From Fibrobacter succinogenes (GTDB lineage Bacteria > Fibrobacterota > Fibrobacteria > Fibrobacterales > Fibrobacteraceae), in NCBI RefSeq assembly GCF_902779965.1, contig NZ_CACZDK010000029.1, positions 1-44,867 on the forward strand: a stretch of DNA of 44,867 bases, given 5' to 3'. The notes under the pieces are model-generated. The model had not been told where the DNA came from and made no database searches. It worked only from the letters and a program-made list of their open reading frames with translations. The translations under genes and the position numbers were made by a program. Below are positions 31,166 to 44,858 of this stretch, in pieces. Each line of letters starts with the position of its first letter. The first letter of the stretch is position 1.

Positions 31166-31534
31166 TAGATTGCATTAATCCTGCCGACACCGAGAAATTG
31201 ACGCCGTTGGCGTCCGTATCATAGTCTCGGTCATAGTTTCCAAGCTTGAAACTGCGACTCTCGACTCAGTACTATTCAGGGCAGGAAGTTCCACTATCTG
31301 CTTGAGGTCGTTTCCCTTTGCTGTGCCGACGACACCGCGAATCGAGACAGTTGCCCTGTGGAGGACCGGCTCCGTGGCTATCAACGTAGAGCACCGTCTG
31401 CCTTAGAATTGGCGGACGTTAAAACCGAGTCATTGAAAAATTTGCAAGCGATTGCCTGACGGCGACCGTGGTTTATGGCTGTTGTCTTTGCAGCTTTCGC
31501 ATGCGGGCTTTAACAAACTTATACGGAGATTCAG
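31166..31534. other. Long leader or decayed gene with strong secondary structure
   Basis: No intact gene is seen. On the plus strand the sequence can fold: CCGAGA/TCTCGG encloses a perfect GACGCC-GTT-GGCGTC hairpin, AGTTTC/GAAACT flanks a seven-base loop, CAGGGCA pairs with TGCCCTG about 70 bases away, and CGTCTGCC with GGCGGACG. Against an RNA role, the minus strand near 31,168-31,245 reads like the end of a decayed protein gene (NYDRDYDTDANGVNFSVSAG then a stop) in local codon usage. It may be the 5' leader of the Rpn gene built from dead coding sequence. Confidence 0.35.
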
Positions 31535-32770
31535 ATGAATCGCACACAACATTATTCCTTGCTCAGGGCAATGGAAATCGACAAGAAAAACCTTCTCAAG
31601 TACCAGGAAATCTACAACTACGCCTACATCCTCAGCGACGGCATTTTCAAGATTGTGTTTGCCGAAGAAAAGGACCATACGCTCCTCATTTCGCTTGTGA
31701 ACGCGATGCTCGACTTGCACGGCGGTGAAACCATCAAGGAAATCACGCTTGAAATGCAGGAGTTCCCCGGCGCGTTCACCAAGAAGGACTGCATCGTGGA
31801 TATTATCGGAACGACCAACGCGGGCGAACGCGTGCTAGTGGAAGTGGTCAACAATCTCATTCCTGTTTCCAAAACAAGTTTTGGACAGGAATGGATTCAG
31901 ACATCCTTCGGCTATCAAGCGGCGAAGCCGCTTTCCCGCAATAAAATTGCGGAGCCTCAAGGACAGCAGCAGGGTGACGAATTTTACCGCGACCGTGTGG
32001 AATATTACATGTCCCGCGTCATCGAGAATCAGGTGCATACAAGCGAAAAGTATGAGTTGCCGCGTATTTACTTCCTCGGGCTCCTGGACTTTACACTTTT
32101 CCCGGAGGAGCCTCAGAAATACATTCACCATGTCGATGAAATGTGCAACGGGAGGAAGTTCTTCCCGAAAATCCAGAAGATTTTCGTGGAAATCGAGAAA
32201 TTTTTCAGGCTTGAAGAAAAGGGGATTACTACAAACGACAACTCAGAAGCCGCTCAGTGGCTTCGCGCCATCAAGGTGACAATCAACGAGGAACCCGTTC
32301 CCGAAAAGATTATGCAGAACGAGACCTTCCGAAGGTTGCTCGACTCGGTGAAATTGATTAATTTTGCAGAAGAGCTTTTCAACTGCGAGATAAAAAACGT
32401 GACGGACTTGATGGCAGAACATGAAATCGGATTTGCCGAGGGCAAGAAAGAAGGTCATGCTGAAGGTTTTGTTCAAGGCAAAACTGAGGGACACGCCGAA
32501 GGACACGAAGCGGGTCTCGCTGAAGGTCGTGCGGAAGGTTTCGCTCAAGGCAAAACTGAGGGACACGCTGAAGGCCGTGAAGCGGGTCTCGCTGAAGGTC
32601 GCGAAGCAGGACGCGCAGAAGGTTTTGCGCAAGGCAAGACCGAAGGGTTGAACGAAGGCGAACTGAGGAAAGCTCGTGAAATAGCAAAAGGGCTCCGCGA
32701 TGACGGAGTCCCGATGGAAATCATCGTCCGCAGATCAGGACTCTCCGAAGACGAAATCCGCAAACTGTAA
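31535..32770 (+). CDS. Rpn/PD-(D/E)XK transposase-family nuclease with insertion at the active site
   Basis: The 411-residue protein belongs to the PD-(D/E)XK transposase family (PF12784-like; Rpn recombination-promoting nucleases). It starts YILSDGIFKIVFAEEKD, has the catalytic Asp in DCIVDIIGTTNAG and the Glu in RVLVEV. Normally E-x-Q continues directly into an aromatic/Arg helix. Here about 41 foreign residues (from VNNLIPVSK to PQGQQ) separate VEV from QGDEFYRDRVEYYMS. The C-terminal 80 residues are repeated GHAEG, GLAEGR and GFAQGKTEG units, usual for the family, then a short helical domain LRKAREIAKGLRDDG. The open frame is kept, but nuclease activity is uncertain. The RBS is CGGAG ten bases upstream. 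Confidence 0.85.
   Translation: MNRTQHYSLLRAMEIDKKNLLKYQEIYNYAYILSDGIFKIVFAEEKDHTLLISLVNAMLDLHGGETIKEITLEMQEFPGAFTKKDCIVDIIGTTNAGERVLVEVVNNLIPVSKTSFGQEWIQTSFGYQAAKPLSRNKIAEPQGQQQGDEFYRDRVEYYMSRVIENQVHTSEKYELPRIYFLGLLDFTLFPEEPQKYIHHVDEMCNGRKFFPKIQKIFVEIEKFFRLEEKGITTNDNSEAAQWLRAIKVTINEEPVPEKIMQNETFRRLLDSVKLINFAEELFNCEIKNVTDLMAEHEIGFAEGKKEGHAEGFVQGKTEGHAEGHEAGLAEGRAEGFAQGKTEGHAEGREAGLAEGREAGRAEGFAQGKTEGLNEGELRKAREIAKGLRDDGVPMEIIVRRSGLSEDEIRKL
31847..31969. repeat. Hairpin-rich in-frame insertion in the Rpn gene
   Basis: The insert of about 123 bases lies between the codons for VEV and QGDEF. It contains three hairpins in a row: TCCTG..TCCAAAA with TTTTGGA.CAGGA (31861-31890), AAGCGGC-gaa-GCCGCTT (31917-31933, perfect) and CCGCAAT-aaa-ATTGCGG (31936-31952, perfect). 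The words AAAACAAG and GGCGAAGC occur in the same order as in the insert at 44466-44546. The exact borders are inferred from where family similarity stops and resumes. Confidence 0.65.
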
Positions 32771-34670: not shown

Positions 34671-34787
34671 CTATGCAAACAGCGAAAAAAGCCACTTGCT
34701 TGAACTGTCAGACGTCTTTTCACTAAAGAACGGAACAACTAAAAAAATTTGTCTATATTCATGACTTAATCTGAAAGCAATTCACAA
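34671..34787. other. Leader-distal flank of the CRISPR array
   Basis: This AT-rich stretch between the last (leader-distal) repeat and the YhcG remnant shows no gene and no clear terminator. The array transcript would run into it on the minus strand. Confidence 0.4.
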
Positions 34788-35908
34788 ATCTACAAGAGTA
34801 GAAATTTTATGAAGCTTCTAGGCGTACAAATAATTCAAAATCCTTATTTTCATCTACAAGAGTAGAAATTTTATGAAGCTTCTAGGCAAGAGAGCACTTA
34901 CGAAAGGCGGAACGATCTACAAGAGTAGAAATTTTATGAAGCTTCTAGGCAATCCCTTTGTTGGAGAATACTTAAAAATCTACAAGAGTAGAAATTTTAT
35001 GAAGCTTCTAGGCGAAGTTAGCGTTAGAGCCAACATTGTTATCTACAAGAGTAGAAATTTTATGAAGCTTCTAGGCTACAAAAGGGAAAAACAACATGGC
35101 AAAATCTACAAGAGTAGAAATTTTATGAAGCTTCTAGGCATAAAGGAGACAAAATAATGACAACCGACATCTACAAGAGTAGAAATTTTATGAAGCTTCT
35201 AGGCTGACGATTAATGAGGCGTGAGCTTGAATCTACAAGAGTAGAAATTTTATGAAGCTTCTAGGCCCGCTTGCGACAATCGCATACATAAACATCTACA
35301 AGAGTAGAAATTTTATGAAGCTTCTAGGCCGGCGACGCATCCTGTATCGCATTCGGATCTACAAGAGTAGAAATTTTATGAAGCTTCTAGGCCATCGTTT
35401 CGGCGGTGCGTGGTTAGACTTATCTACAAGAGTAGAAATTTTATGAAGCTTCTAGGCCGCGAGCTTGCTAAAGGATGTACTTTGTAATCTACAAGAGTAG
35501 AAATTTTATGAAGCTTCTAGGCGAGCTTCTATCACGAGGTGCTTCCGTAATCTACAAGAGTAGAAATTTTATGAAGCTTCTAGGCCGACGAGGACGTGGA
35601 TTTACCATTTTAGCAATCTACAAGAGTAGAAATTTTATGAAGCTTCTAGGCGTACCCTCGGATACATTCCCAACCAGGATCTACAAGAGTAGAAATTTTA
35701 TGAAGCTTCTAGGCCCTGACTCTCGTTTGCACGTACAAGCCATTATCTACAAGAGTAGAAATTTTATGAAGCTTCTAGGCTTGTGCCCAGTGCGCAGATG
35801 GTATGGGATCTACAAGAGTAGAAATTTTATGAAGCTTCTAGGCGGCTCGTTTGTCGAAAACGCAGAAAGCACATCTACAAGAGTAGAAATTTTATGAAGC
35901 TTCTAGGC
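34788..35908 (-). CRISPR. Type V-A CRISPR array, 18 repeats and 17 spacers
   Basis: Eighteen identical 36-base repeats start at 34788, 34852, 34915, 34978, 35041, 35104, 35169, 35231, 35294, 35357, 35422, 35487, 35550, 35616, 35679, 35745, 35808 and 35873. The 17 spacers are 26-30 bases and all differ. In the transcribed (minus) sense each repeat begins GCCTAGAAGCTTCATAAA and ends AATTTCTACTCTTGTAGAT, the Cas12a handle with its TCTAC-TCTT-GTAGA pseudoknot stem. The leader and cas2 are at the high-coordinate end, so the newest spacer is near 35,844-35,872. Even the leader-distal repeat shows no decay, which suggests an active or recently active array. Confidence 0.99.
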
Positions 35909-36092
35909 TCTACATTTATAATATAGTTTAAAATAGTAAGAATTTCAAGGAAAACGAGCGACGTTTGAAAAACTTCTTAGACATACTGCTTAGATGCGCA
36001 CTAGCAACAAATTTGATGCTAACTTTATGATATACAACGAAATACGGAGTTGTCTTGAAACTCCATCAAAAATGTTAAGACCGAGGTTTGCA
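35909..36092 (-). promoter_or_regulatory. CRISPR leader with promoter
   Basis: This AT-rich segment between cas2 and the array holds, on the minus strand, TTGAAA (35943-35948) and TATATT (35920-35925) at the ideal 17-base spacing. Transcription would start about four bases before the first repeat, so the pre-crRNA begins almost directly with repeat sequence. The cas2-proximal part has GGAGTTTCAAGACAACTCC, a nine/ten-base imperfect hairpin around 36,040-36,065, possibly for cas2 termination or integration-host recognition. Confidence 0.65.
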
Positions 36093-36365
36093 TTAAAAGA
36101 ATAACAGGTCCTGATCACGATGAACAGCATTTCCATATTTGATAGTCTTTTTTACATCAACATCAAATAATATGACGCTGTCATCTGGAGAAAACTCTTT
36201 CTTGAAATAGGTCTCTATTTCCATTTTCAGAATGTCAAGAAAACGTTGTGTATGATTAACTTCGTACACTGAATATTGAAGTCGTATAGCTCCATTTGAT
36301 TGGAGCATCTTTGAGAAGGTAGTTCTCAATTTGTCGTCCTTTATGTCATAGCTTACTAATAGCAT
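36093..36365 (-). CDS. cas2: CRISPR-associated endoribonuclease Cas2
   Basis: The 90-residue protein starts MLLVSYDIKDDKLRTTFSKM, the beta1-Asp of the ferredoxin-like Cas2 fold, followed by GAIRLQYSVYEV. It forms the adaptation complex with Cas1 that inserts spacers. It starts two bases after the cas1 stop codon, and its ribosome binding site GGAG is inside the end of cas1, so the two are coupled. The array leader follows at once. Confidence 0.95.
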   Translation of the reverse strand: MLLVSYDIKDDKLRTTFSKMLQSNGAIRLQYSVYEVNHTQRFLDILKMEIETYFKKEFSPDDSVILFDVDVKKTIKYGNAVHRDQDLLFF

Positions 36366-36367
36366 TT

Positions 36368-37336
36368 TTACTCCAATATGAACAAGTCCATTAAATCAGC
36401 ACGTTCCTTCATAAATGCTCTATAGTACGACTGCACGAATTTGAAAACTTCTTTTTTGTAGTTAACTAAATCTTGATAAAATAGAGCCGCATAATCAGAG
36501 TATTTCTCAAATTTCAACAAGTACTCTTTTTTGACTATATTAAAATCATCCTCTTTTATTTGCTTAAGATTTAAAGCCTTCCGAACTTTCGCATCAATTA
36601 AACAGCGAAAAGGTTCCATGATATCACATACTAAAGACTTTCTCTTGAACCAAAGTCGGTGATAAACGCCAACATATGGGTCAAACCCGAATAACCGTAG
36701 AAAGACCTCGATGTAATTGAATAGAATTGTGTAACCAATATCTAGCGTTGCGTTTATAGCGTCATTCTTTGCCCGAGGAAGCCTAACGGTCCAATTGAAT
36801 CCATCGAAGTAACTTTCAAAGAATTTCTTTGAAATGTAGCCCTCTGTACCCATAAGTTCGTTGTAATCATCAATGCCGCCTAGATTGTCCAGGGCTTTAT
36901 CGCACAATTCCCTTGCTTCAAGTATCGCGAAACTTTTTAATCTTGTTTTTTCTAGAGTTTTCTTTTGATTCATTATTTTATTTCGAACAATTTCTCTTGC
37001 AAAGGAAATGTCTGTTTTTTCAAAGAAATATTGCTTTTGATGCAATAAGAAATTGGCTTCGGCATGATTAGCCCAAAAAAAGACTGGTCGCAAATTAGAT
37101 TTCATTACAACAAGAGCCACGTCAAATTTTTTGCATTTTTCCAGTAAAGGCGTTGTTATTGTAATCGGCCCAATGATAAAGAGAGCCAAGATCTTTTGGA
37201 ACGGAAATTTTGTGAGAGTTTTGTGTTCCTCACCTTCTTCAAGAAGCAGTTCTCCTGAAGAAACCCTTAGGTTTCGCTCCTTTATACAGTTGATGACGAA
37301 AATGCTTCGACATTCAATGTCTTTACTGGTAAACAT
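36368..37336 (-). CDS. cas1: CRISPR-associated integrase Cas1
   Basis: The 322-residue protein (start ATG at 37334-37336, preceded by GGAGG) is the spacer integrase. The metal ligands fit the family pattern: Glu in MGTEGYISKKFFESYF, His in GVYHRLWFKRKSLVCD, and the Asp/Glu in DIMEPFRCLID. The start overlaps the end of cas4 by 14 bases. A longer in-frame start 20 codons upstream would overlap cas4 further and adds no conserved sequence. Relationship to other type V-A Cas1 proteins cannot be measured here. Confidence 0.95.
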   Translation of the reverse strand: MFTSKDIECRSIFVINCIKERNLRVSSGELLLEEGEEHKTLTKFPFQKILALFIIGPITITTPLLEKCKKFDVALVVMKSNLRPVFFWANHAEANFLLHQKQYFFEKTDISFAREIVRNKIMNQKKTLEKTRLKSFAILEARELCDKALDNLGGIDDYNELMGTEGYISKKFFESYFDGFNWTVRLPRAKNDAINATLDIGYTILFNYIEVFLRLFGFDPYVGVYHRLWFKRKSLVCDIMEPFRCLIDAKVRKALNLKQIKEDDFNIVKKEYLLKFEKYSDYAALFYQDLVNYKKEVFKFVQSYYRAFMKERADLMDLFILE

Positions 37337-37889
37337 TTTCAACCTCCGCTTTGTCACATAAGCTGTTGTATATACAATGTTGACATTTGCTAGCAATGAC
37401 GCTTATCGAATCAGATGGATTGTAGTTTCGAAATTTTGTTATGAAATCTGAAAATTCTTTTTCTTCTTCTTGGGTGGGTATGCCAATAGGGTGCATTTTA
37501 TTTGTAGATATTTCATAAAAAGCGAGACTTTCTATGTCATAACCCATTTCGTGCATACAAAAATATTGCGCCCACAATTGATAGATTTGCCCCCGAAATA
37601 TTTGCTTTAATTGATATTTGCGTTCTATTAATTTCTTTTCGTTGACCTTGAACAAATCGATTTTACCTAAAAGACCGTATTTGTCACTAAAAACAGGCAA
37701 AGCGGTAATACAGTCGTTTCGCGGACTATAGGTTTTCTTGTCTATGCCAGTATGGGCAATTTTCCCTCGAACTTGAGGTGTTGCGTAGTATATGGATTCA
37801 TCAGTCTCCATATAAACATTATGGAGATATATGGAATAAGGACAGAAGATGAAATCATTCAATGTAGATATGAGTATGTAGTTATCCAT
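37323..37889 (-). CDS. cas4: CRISPR-associated exonuclease Cas4
   Basis: With the ATG at 37887-37889 the protein has 188 residues. Cas4 is a PD-(D/E)XK nuclease with an iron-sulfur cluster that trims prespacers and selects for the PAM. The nuclease core is GKIDLFKV with KKLIERKYQL (Asp, E-x-K), then the QYFCMHEMGYD helix. Cluster cysteines are in DFIFCPYSIYLH and in CQHCIYNSLCDKAEV. A TTG 22 codons upstream is in frame but overlaps cas12a and the terminator stem. No clear ribosome binding site precedes the ATG, and the terminator hairpin is directly upstream. Confidence 0.93.
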   Translation of the reverse strand: MDNYILISTLNDFIFCPYSIYLHNVYMETDESIYYATPQVRGKIAHTGIDKKTYSPRNDCITALPVFSDKYGLLGKIDLFKVNEKKLIERKYQLKQIFRGQIYQLWAQYFCMHEMGYDIESLAFYEISTNKMHPIGIPTQEEEKEFSDFITKFRNYNPSDSISVIASKCQHCIYNSLCDKAEVENVYQ

Positions 37890-37892
37890 ATA

Positions 37893-37921
37893 CAAAAATC
37901 CGGAGATTTTACCTCCGGATT
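37893..37921 (-). terminator. Terminator between cas12a and cas4
   Basis: On the minus strand AATCCGGAG pairs perfectly with CTCCGGATT around a seven-base loop and is followed by TTTTTG. It lies 12 bases after the cas12a stop and four bases before the cas4 ATG, so it should reduce read-through from the effector gene into the adaptation genes. Confidence 0.85.
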
Positions 37922-37932
37922 GGTTAGAGGTT

Positions 37933-40900
37933 TTAACGATTTCGACTTTGTGCAAATTTGAACCAATCTTCGTGCGAAATTTTCAAATCTTTACCTCCAG
38001 CGTCAAATACGTTCTTTATTAGATATAGCCCCTTAAGTGCAATATGGTACGCTCCATTTGCATCTGCATTCTTTGGCAAGGAGTCGCCACAAGACCTACT
38101 ATCATAGAATTCTCCTTTTTTGTTCATTACGGGAGATACAAGATAGTCTTCATCAGTATTTGGAATGCTATTACGCATTTGAAGAGTTTTTTCAAACGCA
38201 TAGCAAATATCACCAAAGAAAGAAGCTGTTTCGCGAGAAGCCTCGACAGAATTGATTGCAGAAAGAACGTCTAATTGGTCTGTCAAAGCTATGTTCTGTT
38301 TTGCGAGAGCTGCCTTGATGATCTCAACAGGGGAAATCGCCTTTGCTGATTTTGATTCCTTGTCATACACAATTCGTTTACCTTGAGAGTAAACAGTCCA
38401 CTTCTTGATGTAATCCGTTTGGAAACACTTGAATTTCTTGTAATCAAAGCTGAACAAAAATCTGTCATTCTTTCCGTCATAAGTAATGTCTTCAAAGTGA
38501 GAAAGGAATTCTTTTTTCTTTTCTGCACTCGTCAATTCTGTCATATTGAACAGATTTGCGAAACCTGTGGTCGGATCAATCTTTGATGTATACGCAGCAG
38601 GAATATAGAACAGAAATCCGCTCTGCTTGCCCAATTTCTGGAAACTATCAAATTTTTCCGCAAGTTGATAACCTTTAAGAACGCCACCTACATCTCCTTC
38701 AGGCTTATTCTTGAAAACAAGATAGTTGAGTTTGTCAATCAACATTTTTTCGAACTTCTGATAAACCTGACGTTCCACACAGAAACGACCTCGTTTAAAG
38801 CCGAAGTTTAAATCTTCAAGAACGACAATGGCATTATTTTCAATCATTGTTGTGGTGATTTCATGAATTACCTGGCTCAAGAAGCCCTCTTTAAGGTCCT
38901 TGATTTTGCCAACACTACTCCAACTCCTTCTAGCAGTGTCTCGTTCCTTTTCACGTTGAACAAGTTTTGCTTGGTAGTTGACTGACTCAACGATATTGAA
39001 ACTTTTCTGCTTAAGAATTTCACCCTTTTGATTTATCAATGTCATATAAAGCAAATGACGTTCGCCACGGTCGATGCCGATGATGTTTACATCAGGATTG
39101 TCTTTCAAAAAATGACGAACACGTTCATTCATGTATTCATTCTTTGAATCGGCCTTGAAGTTTAAAGTTAGCGGCACATGGAACTCAAACTTGTCTTGCG
39201 TGTATCGACGATCCTTTACAATTTCATGCTTGACATCCTTAACGACAGCTACATCAAGATACCTTTTTGCTTCATCGCTAAGTTCGCCATCAAGTTTCCC
39301 GTTGAAATAGCGGAATAATTCGCCAAAGACTGATTCCGGCAAAGGAAGACCATCTTTTCCTATTCGATTCACAAGTTTTTCGCCAACTTTATGACTATAA
39401 GGTTTTTTGACGCTGCTAGGTCTATAGAAAAGTTCGGCTTCGCCATTCAACTTGACAACAACATCTTTCAAGTTTTCAGGAGAGAATACGGACTTCCAAT
39501 ACAGAGTATGCAAATTTGGAGAACCCTTTGCTCCAGGAGCGAAATCCTTGTTGTAAATCTGGAAGAGGAAGAGCTTTCCTTCATTCACCCATTCATCAAT
39601 TTGGGGTGTGGGAATTTTGGAGAAGGTGATTTTGTAGCCTTGATCTGTAACTTCCTTGTAGAAACCACTAATATCCTCGTAGGAAGAAGTATCCGAAAAT
39701 TTGAAATCAAATTTCTTCCAATCAGGATGCTTTGCAATGGATTCCTTAAAGAAATCTATCAACTGATGGCAAAAACCAATATCAAACAAGTCGCCTTTTT
39801 TGTGTTTACCAGCGTTATAGCCGTCAAGAATATCTTTGGGCGGTTTAAAGGTTGCTAGCCCCTTTTCGGAGAAGAAAACCTTTGGTAACATCTTATTCGG
39901 ACCAGGCAACAGCTTATACACCATTTTATCGTAACAATCTTCGCTTTCTGAAGTCTTGAAATCTTTGATTTTAGGCTTATTTTTGGCATTCATAATGCCG
40001 AGATAATACAATCCATTTTTCAGAAGCAAAATGGCTGTGTTTGCTTCCTCTTTGTTTTGATCCCAACCGTCTGCCAATGTGGGATTGTCAAAATTCAACT
40101 TAAACTTTTCAGATTCAGTCAGTTTCTGGGTTGCATAATTACGAATCTTATTGTAAAGAGGGACGACGAGAGAAAGTTGGTCGTACAACGGCATCAGTTC
40201 GTTGTAGAAAGACAAGTCTCGATTTTCTGCATCAGAAATCAAGGGCTTGATTGAATGCATGATTTCTATTAAGGCATCAAGGAAAGCCTTCAGTTTTTCA
40301 ATGACTTTAGAATCTTCTCTTAATGCGTTATTCTCGTTAAAAGTTGCTGAGATGAATTCATCAAGATTCCTTCGGTTATCTCCACAAAGAATACTTTGGA
40401 CCTTCGCCTCAAAATTATTCCAATATGATTCAATCTTAACTCTTGAAATCTCTTCAGAATCACTTTCTGCAATAGCAAGATTCAATGTTGCTATGGAGAA
40501 TTCATTGCTCTTCATCCATGCGTCTATTTTCTTTTTATTTGCAGCTTTTTCTGCAGATCCAATTCTATTTTCGGCATTTTTGAATAAAATTGCATTAATT
40601 GTGTTCCAACTTTTAAACAGTTCCAAAGAAATGCTGGAAAGTTCTTCTTGATTAACATATATGCTACCCAAATCAAATTCTGTGATTCGCTTAATCAAGG
40701 AAGACAATTCTTTAAGGACATTGACCTTACGACCGGCAATATCACAATTCAGGATTTGCGATTCGAAGAATTCTTTCACACTTTCTTGAACTTGAGAATC
40801 AGTGGAATAAGATTCCAAAATAAAAGATTTTGTTTCGCGATCACTAAGAATTTGCTTGTAAAGAGGAATCATCTTTGTCGCAAGACGCTTTTGTGCAAAT

Positions 40901-41721
40901 TCGGGATGCTGTTGGCGATAGAGGTTCGAGAATTCATTGATGCCTCTTGTCTTTTTCTCGCCACCTTCACCACTGAACCCCCCAATCACTTGATTAAAGA
41001 AATCAATTCCAGATTGAGTCAATACATCATTATATGCATTAAGTTCGAAAATGTTAGCAAGCGGTTTTCCGTTCAAAAAATCTTTTAATTCATTTTCTGC
41101 GTCAGACAGCACTGAGGGAGCATTGTCTTTCAAAATATTATAAACTTCGATATTAGACAAGAACTTCGGGAAATTGTCATGAACTAAACGGTATGGAATA
41201 GCAGTACTGATGGCTTCGTCCGAGTAAATGTTTTGCCGATTTTCTTGGAAACCTGTAAAATAAGACGAAAAACCATCAAACGTATCAATGGCAGGCTGTT
41301 TGCCAAAATGGTCTGGGAACACTTTCAAAAATAAATCTTTAGGAGTAGATGCGGTCAGTTCTTTATAGTGGCCATGAGTAGTCAGAGCTTTAGCAATTTT
41401 CTTTCTAAATTCCGTCTGGGTTTTCTCAAGTTTCTTTTTACTTGCGTCAGATCTATCAAGAGATCTTTCAATAGCTTCTTTAAGGGGGTTCCAATCTATG
41501 CAAGGAAACTTACTAAGAGCAGCGTCAATAAAATATTTATGATATTTGTCAATAATCTTTTTCGCGTCAAAATAGTCGTTGTGACGTTTTTTATCATTTT
41601 CAATGATGCCAGTTTCTTTGATTTTTTCAAGTGTTTTTCCCATTGGCTTCAATTCAAAGCGCAGGGTTTTGGAAACTGGGTAAAGTCCAGTGAACTGGGA
41701 GAAGTATGTATTTAGGTTCAT
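37933..41721 (-). CDS. cas12a: CRISPR effector nuclease Cas12a (Cpf1)
   Basis: The 1262-residue protein is an RNA-guided DNA nuclease that also processes its own pre-crRNA. The N-terminus (FTGLYPVSKTLRFELKPMGK) and all main blocks are present. The PAM-facing block is KMLPKVFFSEKGLATFKPPK with KHPDWKKFDFKFSDTSSYED. The RNA-processing and WED region has GEAELFYRPSSVKKPYSHK and KDRRYTQDKFEFHVPLTLNF. RuvC has Asp884 in IIGIDRGERHLLY, Glu969 in VLEDLNFGFKRGR and Asp1220 in KNADANGAYHIALKG. The length is in the usual 1200-1300 range and no frameshift is seen, so activity is expected. GAGG lies six bases before the ATG. No clear promoter is visible. Confidence 0.98.
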   Translation of the reverse strand: MNLNTYFSQFTGLYPVSKTLRFELKPMGKTLEKIKETGIIENDKKRHNDYFDAKKIIDKYHKYFIDAALSKFPCIDWNPLKEAIERSLDRSDASKKKLEKTQTEFRKKIAKALTTHGHYKELTASTPKDLFLKVFPDHFGKQPAIDTFDGFSSYFTGFQENRQNIYSDEAISTAIPYRLVHDNFPKFLSNIEVYNILKDNAPSVLSDAENELKDFLNGKPLANIFELNAYNDVLTQSGIDFFNQVIGGFSGEGGEKKTRGINEFSNLYRQQHPEFAQKRLATKMIPLYKQILSDRETKSFILESYSTDSQVQESVKEFFESQILNCDIAGRKVNVLKELSSLIKRITEFDLGSIYVNQEELSSISLELFKSWNTINAILFKNAENRIGSAEKAANKKKIDAWMKSNEFSIATLNLAIAESDSEEISRVKIESYWNNFEAKVQSILCGDNRRNLDEFISATFNENNALREDSKVIEKLKAFLDALIEIMHSIKPLISDAENRDLSFYNELMPLYDQLSLVVPLYNKIRNYATQKLTESEKFKLNFDNPTLADGWDQNKEEANTAILLLKNGLYYLGIMNAKNKPKIKDFKTSESEDCYDKMVYKLLPGPNKMLPKVFFSEKGLATFKPPKDILDGYNAGKHKKGDLFDIGFCHQLIDFFKESIAKHPDWKKFDFKFSDTSSYEDISGFYKEVTDQGYKITFSKIPTPQIDEWVNEGKLFLFQIYNKDFAPGAKGSPNLHTLYWKSVFSPENLKDVVVKLNGEAELFYRPSSVKKPYSHKVGEKLVNRIGKDGLPLPESVFGELFRYFNGKLDGELSDEAKRYLDVAVVKDVKHEIVKDRRYTQDKFEFHVPLTLNFKADSKNEYMNERVRHFLKDNPDVNIIGIDRGERHLLYMTLINQKGEILKQKSFNIVESVNYQAKLVQREKERDTARRSWSSVGKIKDLKEGFLSQVIHEITTTMIENNAIVVLEDLNFGFKRGRFCVERQVYQKFEKMLIDKLNYLVFKNKPEGDVGGVLKGYQLAEKFDSFQKLGKQSGFLFYIPAAYTSKIDPTTGFANLFNMTELTSAEKKKEFLSHFEDITYDGKNDRFLFSFDYKKFKCFQTDYIKKWTVYSQGKRIVYDKESKSAKAISPVEIIKAALAKQNIALTDQLDVLSAINSVEASRETASFFGDICYAFEKTLQMRNSIPNTDEDYLVSPVMNKKGEFYDSRSCGDSLPKNADANGAYHIALKGLYLIKNVFDAGGKDLKISHEDWFKFAQSRNR

Positions 41722-41861
41722 TTTTGCCTCTATATATTATTCTTTTTCAATATAACATCTTTACACGACAAATACTGACATTCAACTTATTTTTCAAAAA
41801 AAATCCCCCCCCATCATCGAGCCGTGCTTCATAAGGCAAGGTGATTCCATTTTTCTTCTGC

Positions 41862-41990
41862 CTATACCATATCGTTAGCCTACTCCTTGGTGTTTTTTCC
41901 GCTTTGCCAGCGTGCTTGAGCAGGTTATGCCTGCACTCTTCGGCGTTCACGATTTGTTCACAGTACGTTTTTATCAAATCGGAACGGATG
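41862..41990 (-). pseudogene. Remnant of an Rpn/PD-(D/E)XK transposase-family gene
   Basis: The minus-strand sequence aligns with the C-terminal part of the gene at 43635-44858. NAEECRHNLLKHAGKAEKTP here matches TAEERWLYLLKHAGKAEKLP there, and the bases for MVWTEEE (ATACCATATCGTTAGCCT on the plus strand) are shared too, with about 60 bases missing between the two blocks. The reading frame is broken and the catalytic domain is absent. It borders the 42-bp tandem repeat on its other side. Confidence 0.75.
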
Positions 41991-42034
41991 TTTTCAATAA
42001 TCGGCTAACCCCATTCGTAATTACTTCGGAAATT

Positions 42035-42484
42035 GCTCTTAAACTTTTGTAGAAGCACTTTCCCACTTTTGGGAATGCTCTTAAACTTTTGTAGAAGTAC
42101 TTTCCCACTTTTGGGAAAGCTCTTAAACTTTTGTAGAAGCACTTTCCCACTTTTGGGAAAGCTCTTAAACTTTTGTAGAAGTACTTTCCCACTTTTGGGA
42201 AAGCTCTTAAACTTTTGTAGAAGCACTTTTCCACTTTTGGGAAAGCTCTTAAACTTTTGTAGAAGCACTTTCCCACTTTGGGGAAAGCTCTTAAACTTTT
42301 GTAGAAGCACTTTCCCACTTTGGGGAAAGCTCTTAAACTTTTGTAGAAGCACTTTCCCACTTTGGGGAAAGCTCTCAAACTTTTGTAGAAGCACTTTCCC
42401 ACTTTTGGGAAAGCTCTCAAACTTTTGTAGAAGCACTTTTCCACTTTCGGGAAAGCTCTCAAACTTTTGTAGAAGCACTTTCCC
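42035..42484. repeat. 11-copy 42-bp tandem repeat with hairpin units
   Basis: Units start every 42 bases from 42035 to 42455 (GCTCTTAAACTTTTGTAGAA on the plus strand is the first half). The second half, CTTTCCC-ACTTTT-GGGAAAG, forms a perfect seven-base stem, and outer AAG/CTT can pair as well. The last unit is cut. Units differ by only a few bases, and there are no variable spacers, so it is not a CRISPR array. Because 42 is a multiple of three, several frames are open on both strands (for example KCFYKSLRAFPKVG repeated on the minus strand), but none has a ribosome binding site that I can defend. Confidence 0.95.
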
Positions 42485-42505
42485 GTTCCTAAAATCATTT
42501 TTTAA

Positions 42506-42556
42506 ACAAGTTTTTACAAATAAAACACTATTTTACACAAACTTGACAAAACTTGT
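42506..42556. repeat. 9-bp inverted repeat with 33-base loop
   Basis: ACAAGTTTT and AAAACTTGT are perfectly complementary, in the AT-rich gap between the tandem repeat and the DUF6261-like gene. TTGACA lies inside the right part, but no matching -10 box is evident. It could be an operator for the downstream gene. Confidence 0.35.
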
Positions 42557-42676
42557 ACAAAATCAAGCAAAAATAGAGCAACCAGCTATGCAACCGGCAC
42601 ATCTAATTTGTTGAAAGGTGGTTAGAAAGCCTTTCAGAAACAAAAACCATAAACCTTCTAGAACGAGGATAAAATA

Positions 42677-43634: not shown

Positions 43635-44858
43635 TTACTTGATAGCATCGCCTGACGATGAAGCCTTAAGCTCAAGAATCTTGCTTTCAGGCAGATGCGA
43701 ATACTTGACAATTTTCTCGATAGGTTCGTTATTGGAAAGCATATCGAGAGCCATTTCAATACGGCCTTTTTCAAGGCCTTTAATCTCACCTTCAGCACGT
43801 CCTTTTTCAAGTCCCTGTTCATGGCCCTGTTCATGGCCCTGTTCAAGACCCTGTTCAAGACCCTGTTTAAGCCCCTGTTTAAGCCCCTGTTCAAGACCTT
43901 TCTTTAAGCCTTTCTCAAGCCCTTTCTGTTCGGCACGGACTTCCAACAAGGCCAAATGATCCAATTCCTCTTCTGTCCATACCATATCGTTAGCCTGATC
44001 CTTGATGAGTTTTTCTGACGCTCGGTTCACTAAGATCCTGTGAATAGCCTTCGCAATAACGGAATCGTTGAAGTCAGGGAGCTTTTCTGCTTTGCCAGCG
44101 TGCTTGAGCAGGTAAAGCCAGCGTTCTTCTGCGGTCATGATTTCTTCGAAGGTTTTGTTGAACTTCGTCAAATCATATAGAATATACATCATCTTATCGC
44201 TCAGCGTCAAGCCGTCCTTGTTGCGGACAGCCCAATCACCACGGAAATTTTTCTGTTCGCTTATGGGAAAGTCACAAATCCAGATGGCGTAGGTCGGAGG
44301 TACTTCATAACGGTGAATTTCGCGTGTGGCGCGTTGTTCTTTCGTCAAGTCAGAAGGGAGATTTCCAAAAATCAGCTGGTCCCATTCGCATTTGCTTTGG
44401 AGCATGAAGGCGCTGTGTTGTAAAAGAACTCTATCGACAAAATAGTCTGGTTTCGCCTTTTGCATTTGACGCCTACGGCGTCAGCTGCTTCGCCTCAGTT
44501 ATAAAAACAAGCAAGCTTGTTTTTGCAACGTTCGGCTAGCACGCTACTCTACATTAATGTGTATGCCATTCGAGGTTGTCGCTCGGATATCGAGTCTAAA
44601 GGACTTGACCGCCGGGAAAATAACATTGATTTCTGAATTTTTGATGACAACCGATTCTATTTTGTTACTCTCTTTTAAGTGAAATACACCATTCAAGAAA
44701 TTTATCAGAGCTTCTTCATCGCTTAATAAAGCCTTGAATGCGGCATCAAAGAGCGGATCGAGATAAGTGTGTTTCTTGATTTCTTCGATAGTTTTGTCAA
44801 CCAACTGGTCACGAGAAGTCGTGATTGAAAATTCGAGCGTTTTTTGTTTTTCTGACAT
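43635..44858 (-). pseudogene. Rpn/PD-(D/E)XK transposase-family gene split at the catalytic E-x-Q motif
   Basis: The 5' part (from an ATG at 44856-44858 with AGGAG upstream) reads LDPLFDAAFKALLSDEE, typical of the family, has the catalytic Asp in FRLDIRATTSNG, and stops just after HINVE. The 3' part starts MQKAKPDYFVDRVLLQHSAF and continues to YLLKHAGKAEKLPDFNDSV and a GLEQGLKQG-type repeat, ending with a small helical domain (EKIVKYSHLPESKILELK). Joining the two gives INVE-MQKAKPDYF, the normal E-x-Q site. An 81-base insert with an immediate TAG separates them. The 3' part could still be made from its own ATG, but no protein with a whole active site results. It is otherwise free of frameshifts, so the interruption looks recent. 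Confidence 0.85.
44466..44546. repeat. 81-bp palindromic insertion in the Rpn-family gene
   Basis: The insert lies exactly between the Glu and Met codons of the INVE-MQ motif. It contains two perfect hairpins: TGACGCC-TAC-GGCGTCA (44467-44483) and AAAAACAAG-CAAG-CTTGTTTTT (44503-44524). Its length is a multiple of three, yet it carries a TAG at once in the gene's sense. In gene sense the words AAAACAAG and then GGCGAAGC occur as in the insert at 31847-31969. No clear target-site duplication is visible. Confidence 0.8.

Follow-up and report, generated by a model that had tools for sequence, protein, structure and literature searches.

Close to the end of the 44,867-nt stretch of Fibrobacter succinogenes DNA analysed here (the window), a gene of the Rpn family of PD-(D/E)XK nucleases is split by 81 nt at the glutamate codon of its catalytic E-x-Q motif, and the question is what this insert is and why it sits at that very codon. 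The minus-strand sequence of the gene runs as far as AAT GTA GAG, is then interrupted by TAGCGTGCTAGCC...GGCGTCAA (81 nt), and resumes with ATG CAA AAG (MQKAKPDYF). The upstream half has the Glu of E-x-Q as its last residue, with read-through halted by a TAG at 44544–44546, while the open frame of the downstream half begins with the native Met of E-M-Q and carries C-terminal repeats of four residues. The insert corresponds to 27 codons, three of which are in-frame stops (TAG as the first codon, later TAA and TGA); since TAG comes first, the nuclease active site is likely lost. A precise insertion of 81 bases between INVE and MQKAKPDYF had been proposed by a sequence-only reading, and it is confirmed by the exact empty site in L016, a paralogue in the same genome (C18:58702-59745, 90% nucleotide identity), which reads GTG GAG|ATG CAG; comparison of the filled and empty sites shows zero bases lost or duplicated. 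The Glu|Met-Gln codons are also uninterrupted in relatives with 83–91% identity from other genomes, the uninterrupted close relatives, with the paralogue included, being L016, G001, G054, G069 and G067. The boundaries slide by 2 nt (AGTAGCG...GGCGTC, 44468–44548) if the pre-insertion Glu codon was GAA. An assembly error, which that reading had named as a refuting alternative, is ruled out because the element recurs at this site in other assemblies.

Table 1. Positions in the window of the two interrupted Rpn-family genes, their inserts and the related hairpins.
Feature	Position	Strand	Basis and remarks
Inserted element, 81 nt	44466..44546	minus	begins TAGCGTGC, ends GGCGTCAA; empty-site paralogue L016 and BLAST copies in own genome and genus
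Core hairpin	44482..44547	minus	covariance model R1, 71.6 bits; covariation in 27 copies
Second small hairpin, GACGCC-GTA-GGCGTC	44468..44482	minus	sequence; closes the element just before AA
Upstream half of interrupted Rpn (PD-(D/E)XK) gene	44547..44858	minus	PF12784 profile 1-72; TIGR01784 profile 2-70
Downstream half of interrupted Rpn gene	43635..44465	minus	PF12784 profile 92-212; translation
Second core copy	31214..31276	minus	R1, 54.7 bits; intergenic, upstream of the gene at 31535
Hairpin GACGCCAACGGCGTC after the second core copy	31200-31214		sequence
Rpn-family gene with 117-nt insert	31535..32770	plus	PF12784, two stretches
117-nt insert at E-V|Q, in frame, stop-free, three perfect hairpins	31847..31963	plus	empty in orthologues

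The interrupted gene is adjoined by an Rpn-gene remnant (41833–42580), which contains two stretches 79–85% identical to 43948–44147 and is fused to about 11–15 tandem copies of a 42-nt repeat. The window also holds a type V CRISPR locus (34778–41721) comprising Cas12a (1262 aa), Cas1, Cas4 and an array of 18 repeats.

The element is built around a core hairpin whose parts, from the outside in, are a variable outer stem, an AAG/GAA loop, a 3-bp helix, a GA/GA internal loop with one bulged base, three covarying pairs, an invariant G.T and C.A, and a variable stem usually capped by GCTTGC. Among 27 aligned cores, the 3-bp helix shows G-C/C-G/A-U swaps, and the three covarying pairs occur as GTC/GAC, GTT/AAC, GAT/ATC and GCT/AGC. 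Compensatory changes are found in 13 of the 17 pairs, 95.7% of cells are paired, and the covariation score is 0.687, against 0.226 for shuffled and at most 0.143 for slid alignments. The core is followed by a stem of at least 5 in 74 of 118 own-genome copies, compared with 54 of 590 random places. The window insert itself folds better than shuffled sequence (DNA z −2.8), and a search of Rfam gave chance-level matches only and no curated family. At four loci (L038, L040, L041 and L084) the element lies inside a longer recurrent frame, GGAGCGTCGGCCAAGG...CCGAGCTGGGGCCCCGCCCGCAT, which is perhaps another repeat family or a composite.

This structured element is present in high copy throughout the genus. 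BLAST with the 81-nt insert finds it at more than 30 places in its own genome, and the covariance model detects at least 150 core copies there (4.1 Mb, E ≤ 1e-5); given these covarying copies and the fold, the insert is not a chance sequence. The same model found the core in 25 of 25 Fibrobacter genomes scanned and in 0 of 16 genomes from other genera. When 84,980 species genomes were searched with the exact core pattern, 42 stretches were recovered, 40 of them titled Fibrobacter, one Fibrobacterales and one an 'uncultured proteobacterium' MAG. The exact pattern had 0 matches in IMG/VR, and viral spread was set aside on that ground. No prior description was found in the literature searched, the coverage of which was partial; the family appears to be previously undescribed and has so far been seen only in Fibrobacter.

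Another hairpin insertion at an E-x-Q motif, 3 nt from the equivalent site, is seen in the Rpn-family gene at 31.5 kb, and the sequence-only reading had regarded it as a relative of the 81-nt insert. The two inserts do lie in one motif, but at E-V|Q in the 31.5-kb gene and at E|M-Q in the 44.5-kb gene, the former being one codon downstream. Both octamers that had been noted as shared, AAAACAAG and GGCGAAGC, are indeed present in the 117-nt insert, but there they belong to unrelated perfect hairpins. The core model gives this insert 6.4 bits, for one bare hairpin, compared with 71.6 bits for the 44.5-kb insert; its fold is strong (DNA z −8.85), and no other copy was found in its own genome. In the orthologues that other Fibrobacter genomes yielded, the alignment covers residues 1–104 and 144–304 and leaves out the insert; the closest of them (G093, 97.8% identical) has no DNA between these two parts. 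Kinship of the two inserts is therefore not supported, as the core is absent, no other copy exists in the genome and the insertion point is different; to judge from its sequence, the 117-nt insert is a different one, private to its gene. Nor is there support for a shared ancestral insert that decayed differently in the two genes, since the 31.5-kb orthologues found have no insert and no interruption at this site is seen in close relatives of the interrupted genes.

The suggested search for inserts at this codon in other Fibrobacter Rpn genes was fruitful: ten Rpn-type genes, spread over nine Fibrobacter genomes, have the element family at exactly E|MQ. Besides the window gene, three of them (G075, G006 and G055) were obtained by a genus search with the uninterrupted protein, three (two genes in G084 and one in G053) by BLAST with the element, and three (G056, G046 and G063) by scanning 80 genomes for the terminal hairpin followed by ATGCAR. 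In this pattern scan, every one of the ten loci whose hairpin is followed by ATGCAR belongs to an Rpn-type gene; the continuation is altered at three further loci, which are other genes. The TIGR01784 profile is split at the insert, with the N-part of the window gene matching 2–70 and the C-part of G056 matching 71–217; G046 and G063 are called Rpn by motif and by similarity to G056, without a profile match. The elements are much more alike than the genes that carry them. Those of the two G084 genes and G053 are 100% identical in genes of 81–89% identity, those of G075 and G006 are 96% identical in genes of 62–66%, and those of the window gene and G075 are 84% identical in genes of about 65%, the overall ranges being 84–100% for the elements and 46–89% for the hosts. 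Moreover, the G066 gene, 94% identical to that of G075, shows no interruption. Because element identity far exceeds host identity and close relatives are uninterrupted, the comparison indicates that recurrent independent insertion at E|MQ is the simplest reading. Site-directed insertion, as proposed earlier, is thus supported by these ten genes and their elements, but not by the 44.5/31.5-kb pair from which it had been deduced.

Beyond the Rpn genes, the majority of copies in the own genome are intergenic, and 69 of the 98 neighbouring gene ends within 150 nt (long-ORF calls) are 3′ ends. Neighbours lie 49 on the same and 49 on the opposite strand, so a general orientation bias was rejected; in a looser, pooled tally same-strand neighbours prevailed, but its loci had partly been picked around genes. 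The first bases of the element supply the stop codon of at least nine longer genes. Copies that are in frame and open were found in otherwise normal genes, those for RNase HII (rnhB, PF01351; L077:939-1871), a UPF0020 methyltransferase (L245) and one Rpn protein (L005), and these are possible translated insertions. The L005 insertion is a clean one at GA|A, at another position than E|MQ. In other genomes, 5′-truncated extra thrS fragments are studded with copies, again cleanly inserted at ...GA|A..., between or inside codons, and a carB fragment is interrupted at E|K. The base that precedes the model start is A in 77% of cases and never T (n=114), and these frequencies agree with a weak GA|A insertion target.

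Arrays of the truncated thrS fragments were seen at L180 (G073), L181 (G009), L183-L184 (G072), L185 (G058) and L186 (G000). Several of them lie downstream of an intact thrS, and some fragment starts are marked by a recurrent ATATAGCCCGACCGCACAT-type hairpin.

We consider it probable that the 81-nt insert represents one copy of a small interspersed palindromic element, about 80 nt long and specific to Fibrobacter, which spreads cleanly and for which GA(A/G)|ATGCA(A/G) is a favoured site. The unit consists of the structured core hairpin and the terminal hairpin, and its insertions, at weak ...GA|A... sites, are clean, with no base loss and no clear target duplication; the mobilising enzyme probably acts in trans. 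In Rpn nuclease genes, the E|MQ codons have been struck independently many times, for two putative reasons. The sequence GA(A/G)|ATGCA(A/G), held constant by its coding for the catalytic E-x-Q, may be preferred by the machinery as a target, and an insertion at this point may be tolerated or favoured because the nuclease would end at its active-site Glu. The nuclease would be lost in the interrupted gene; as the Rpn family (PF12784/TIGR01784) acts in E. coli as an anti-phage toxin with an intragenic antitoxin (PMC10327210), this may be of no consequence to the cell, or useful. Selection that favours a nuclease broken at the catalytic Glu may also contribute to the E|MQ excess, since a weak GA|A preference by itself fails to explain the choice of E|MQ over the other GAA sites, of which an Rpn gene of such length has about 37.

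How much of the excess could be due to retention? Insertion might be near-random over GA|A, with E|MQ prominent because only such insertions were kept: the toxic nuclease is killed, and the native Met restarts the C-terminal part that holds the antitoxin. This agrees with the toxin and intragenic antitoxin described for Rpn (PMC10327210), with the ATG that opens the downstream half in all ten E|MQ cases, and with the fact that other Rpn positions have been struck as well (L005 and G044). Among the Rpn genes met by protein similarity, four inserts are at E|MQ and those two elsewhere, and by simple arithmetic the chance of 4 in 6 falling on one given site among 37 is about 1e-5. Against retention, an insertion anywhere before the motif would knock out the nuclease just as well, the downstream half is truncated in G006 and G063, and the G084 and G053 copies have no stop directly after the Glu on entering the insert. 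This account is, in our view, unlikely. A bolder one credits a mobile RNA-like hairpin with true specificity for Rpn active-site codons: it would enter genes in sense orientation only, perhaps via an RNA intermediate, or be removed or bypassed in the transcript and so leave the interrupted genes open to expression. This seems to us distinctly improbable.

Gene conversion or recombination between Rpn paralogues could have moved the insert from gene to gene, as these paralogues are numerous (26 profile matches in the own genome) and the two in G084 carry identical elements. Host divergence, however, runs up to the junctions on both sides, the inserts belong to several subfamilies and the genes struck are from different species, leaving this route very improbable.

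The core does have RNA-like traits (a CUUG loop, G.U and tandem G.A), the insertions seen in conserved coding sequence are in sense, and the reading frame is continuous exactly across them, so splicing-like RNA removal or ribosome bypass, likened to the 'byp' elements of yeast mitochondria and to phage T4 gene 60, might keep the interrupted genes functional. Substitutions found only in the interrupted window gene are also mostly synonymous (11 versus 3, with no stop), as would fit a recent insertion or persisting constraint, but a set of roughly 14 is too small to demonstrate constraint. Programmed bypass is marked by take-off and landing codons that match, and these are absent: GAA or GAG precedes the element, while its last triplet is CAA or CCA. 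The rnhB, L005 and UPF0020 copies are in frame and can simply be translated. The thrS pieces that bear the element are extras, several of those genomes having an intact thrS as well, and are thus probably dead remnants that give no evidence for introns; the carB pieces open in unrelated sequence shortly before the element. On these grounds intron-like removal was rejected for essential genes, and RNA-level removal or bypass as a whole appears unlikely, with a chance that we take to be slim. An early insertion in the Rpn family, precisely lost many times since, would account for empty sites exact to the base, but it is the least probable of all, given elements so much more similar than their genes, variable stems that differ at the E|MQ site (AAAAACAA, AATAAAAT and GGCAGACC types), uninterrupted relatives that outnumber the interrupted ones, and interrupted genes that are scattered tips in the pairs examined.

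The Fibrobacter element behaves like a small interspersed palindromic repeat, and can be compared with several known systems. Like the Rickettsia palindromic elements (RPE), it is small and palindromic, has many copies within and between genes, and is sometimes in frame, so that RPE-like translated insertion may apply to rnhB and Rpn L005. Unlike RPE, it belongs to another taxon and recurs at the same codon of one gene family, and the window copy has three in-frame stops and breaks its gene; compared by description only, the stop-free trait is seen in the rnhB, L005 and UPF0020 copies and absent from the window copy. With REP/BIME sequences and their RAYT transposases it shares an imperfect hairpin of similar size, a conserved mismatch region, high copy number, a mostly intergenic location, often at gene 3′ ends, and tandem clusters, but it also enters conserved coding sequence. 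A search with the Y1 (RAYT) transposase profile PF01797 found no match in the own genome; the profile is present in 27 of 80 genus genomes, and the flanks of six Y1 genes were without the core. A REP/RAYT identity was rejected for these reasons, and no transposase was found linked to the element. MITEs are likewise short, non-autonomous, high-copy and devoid of coding capacity, but here an internal structured core takes the place of terminal inverted repeats, none of a known transposase being recognised, and no target-site duplication was seen at the clean sites examined, apart from an AA ambiguity. An integron attC site was set aside on sequence alone, since the outer ends are variable and the copies dispersed. 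The host genes agree with the Rpn family as described (PMC10327210), including the four-residue C-terminal repeats, but here Rpn is the target of an element and not the element itself.

Taken together, Fibrobacter, whose members are major fibre degraders of herbivore guts, carries an apparently undescribed and very abundant family of small structured repeats. The element accounts for split or stop-containing Rpn annotations in Fibrobacter genomes, and its repeated, base-exact insertion in the catalytic codon of toxin/anti-phage nuclease genes offers a natural and directly testable case of target choice versus selection.
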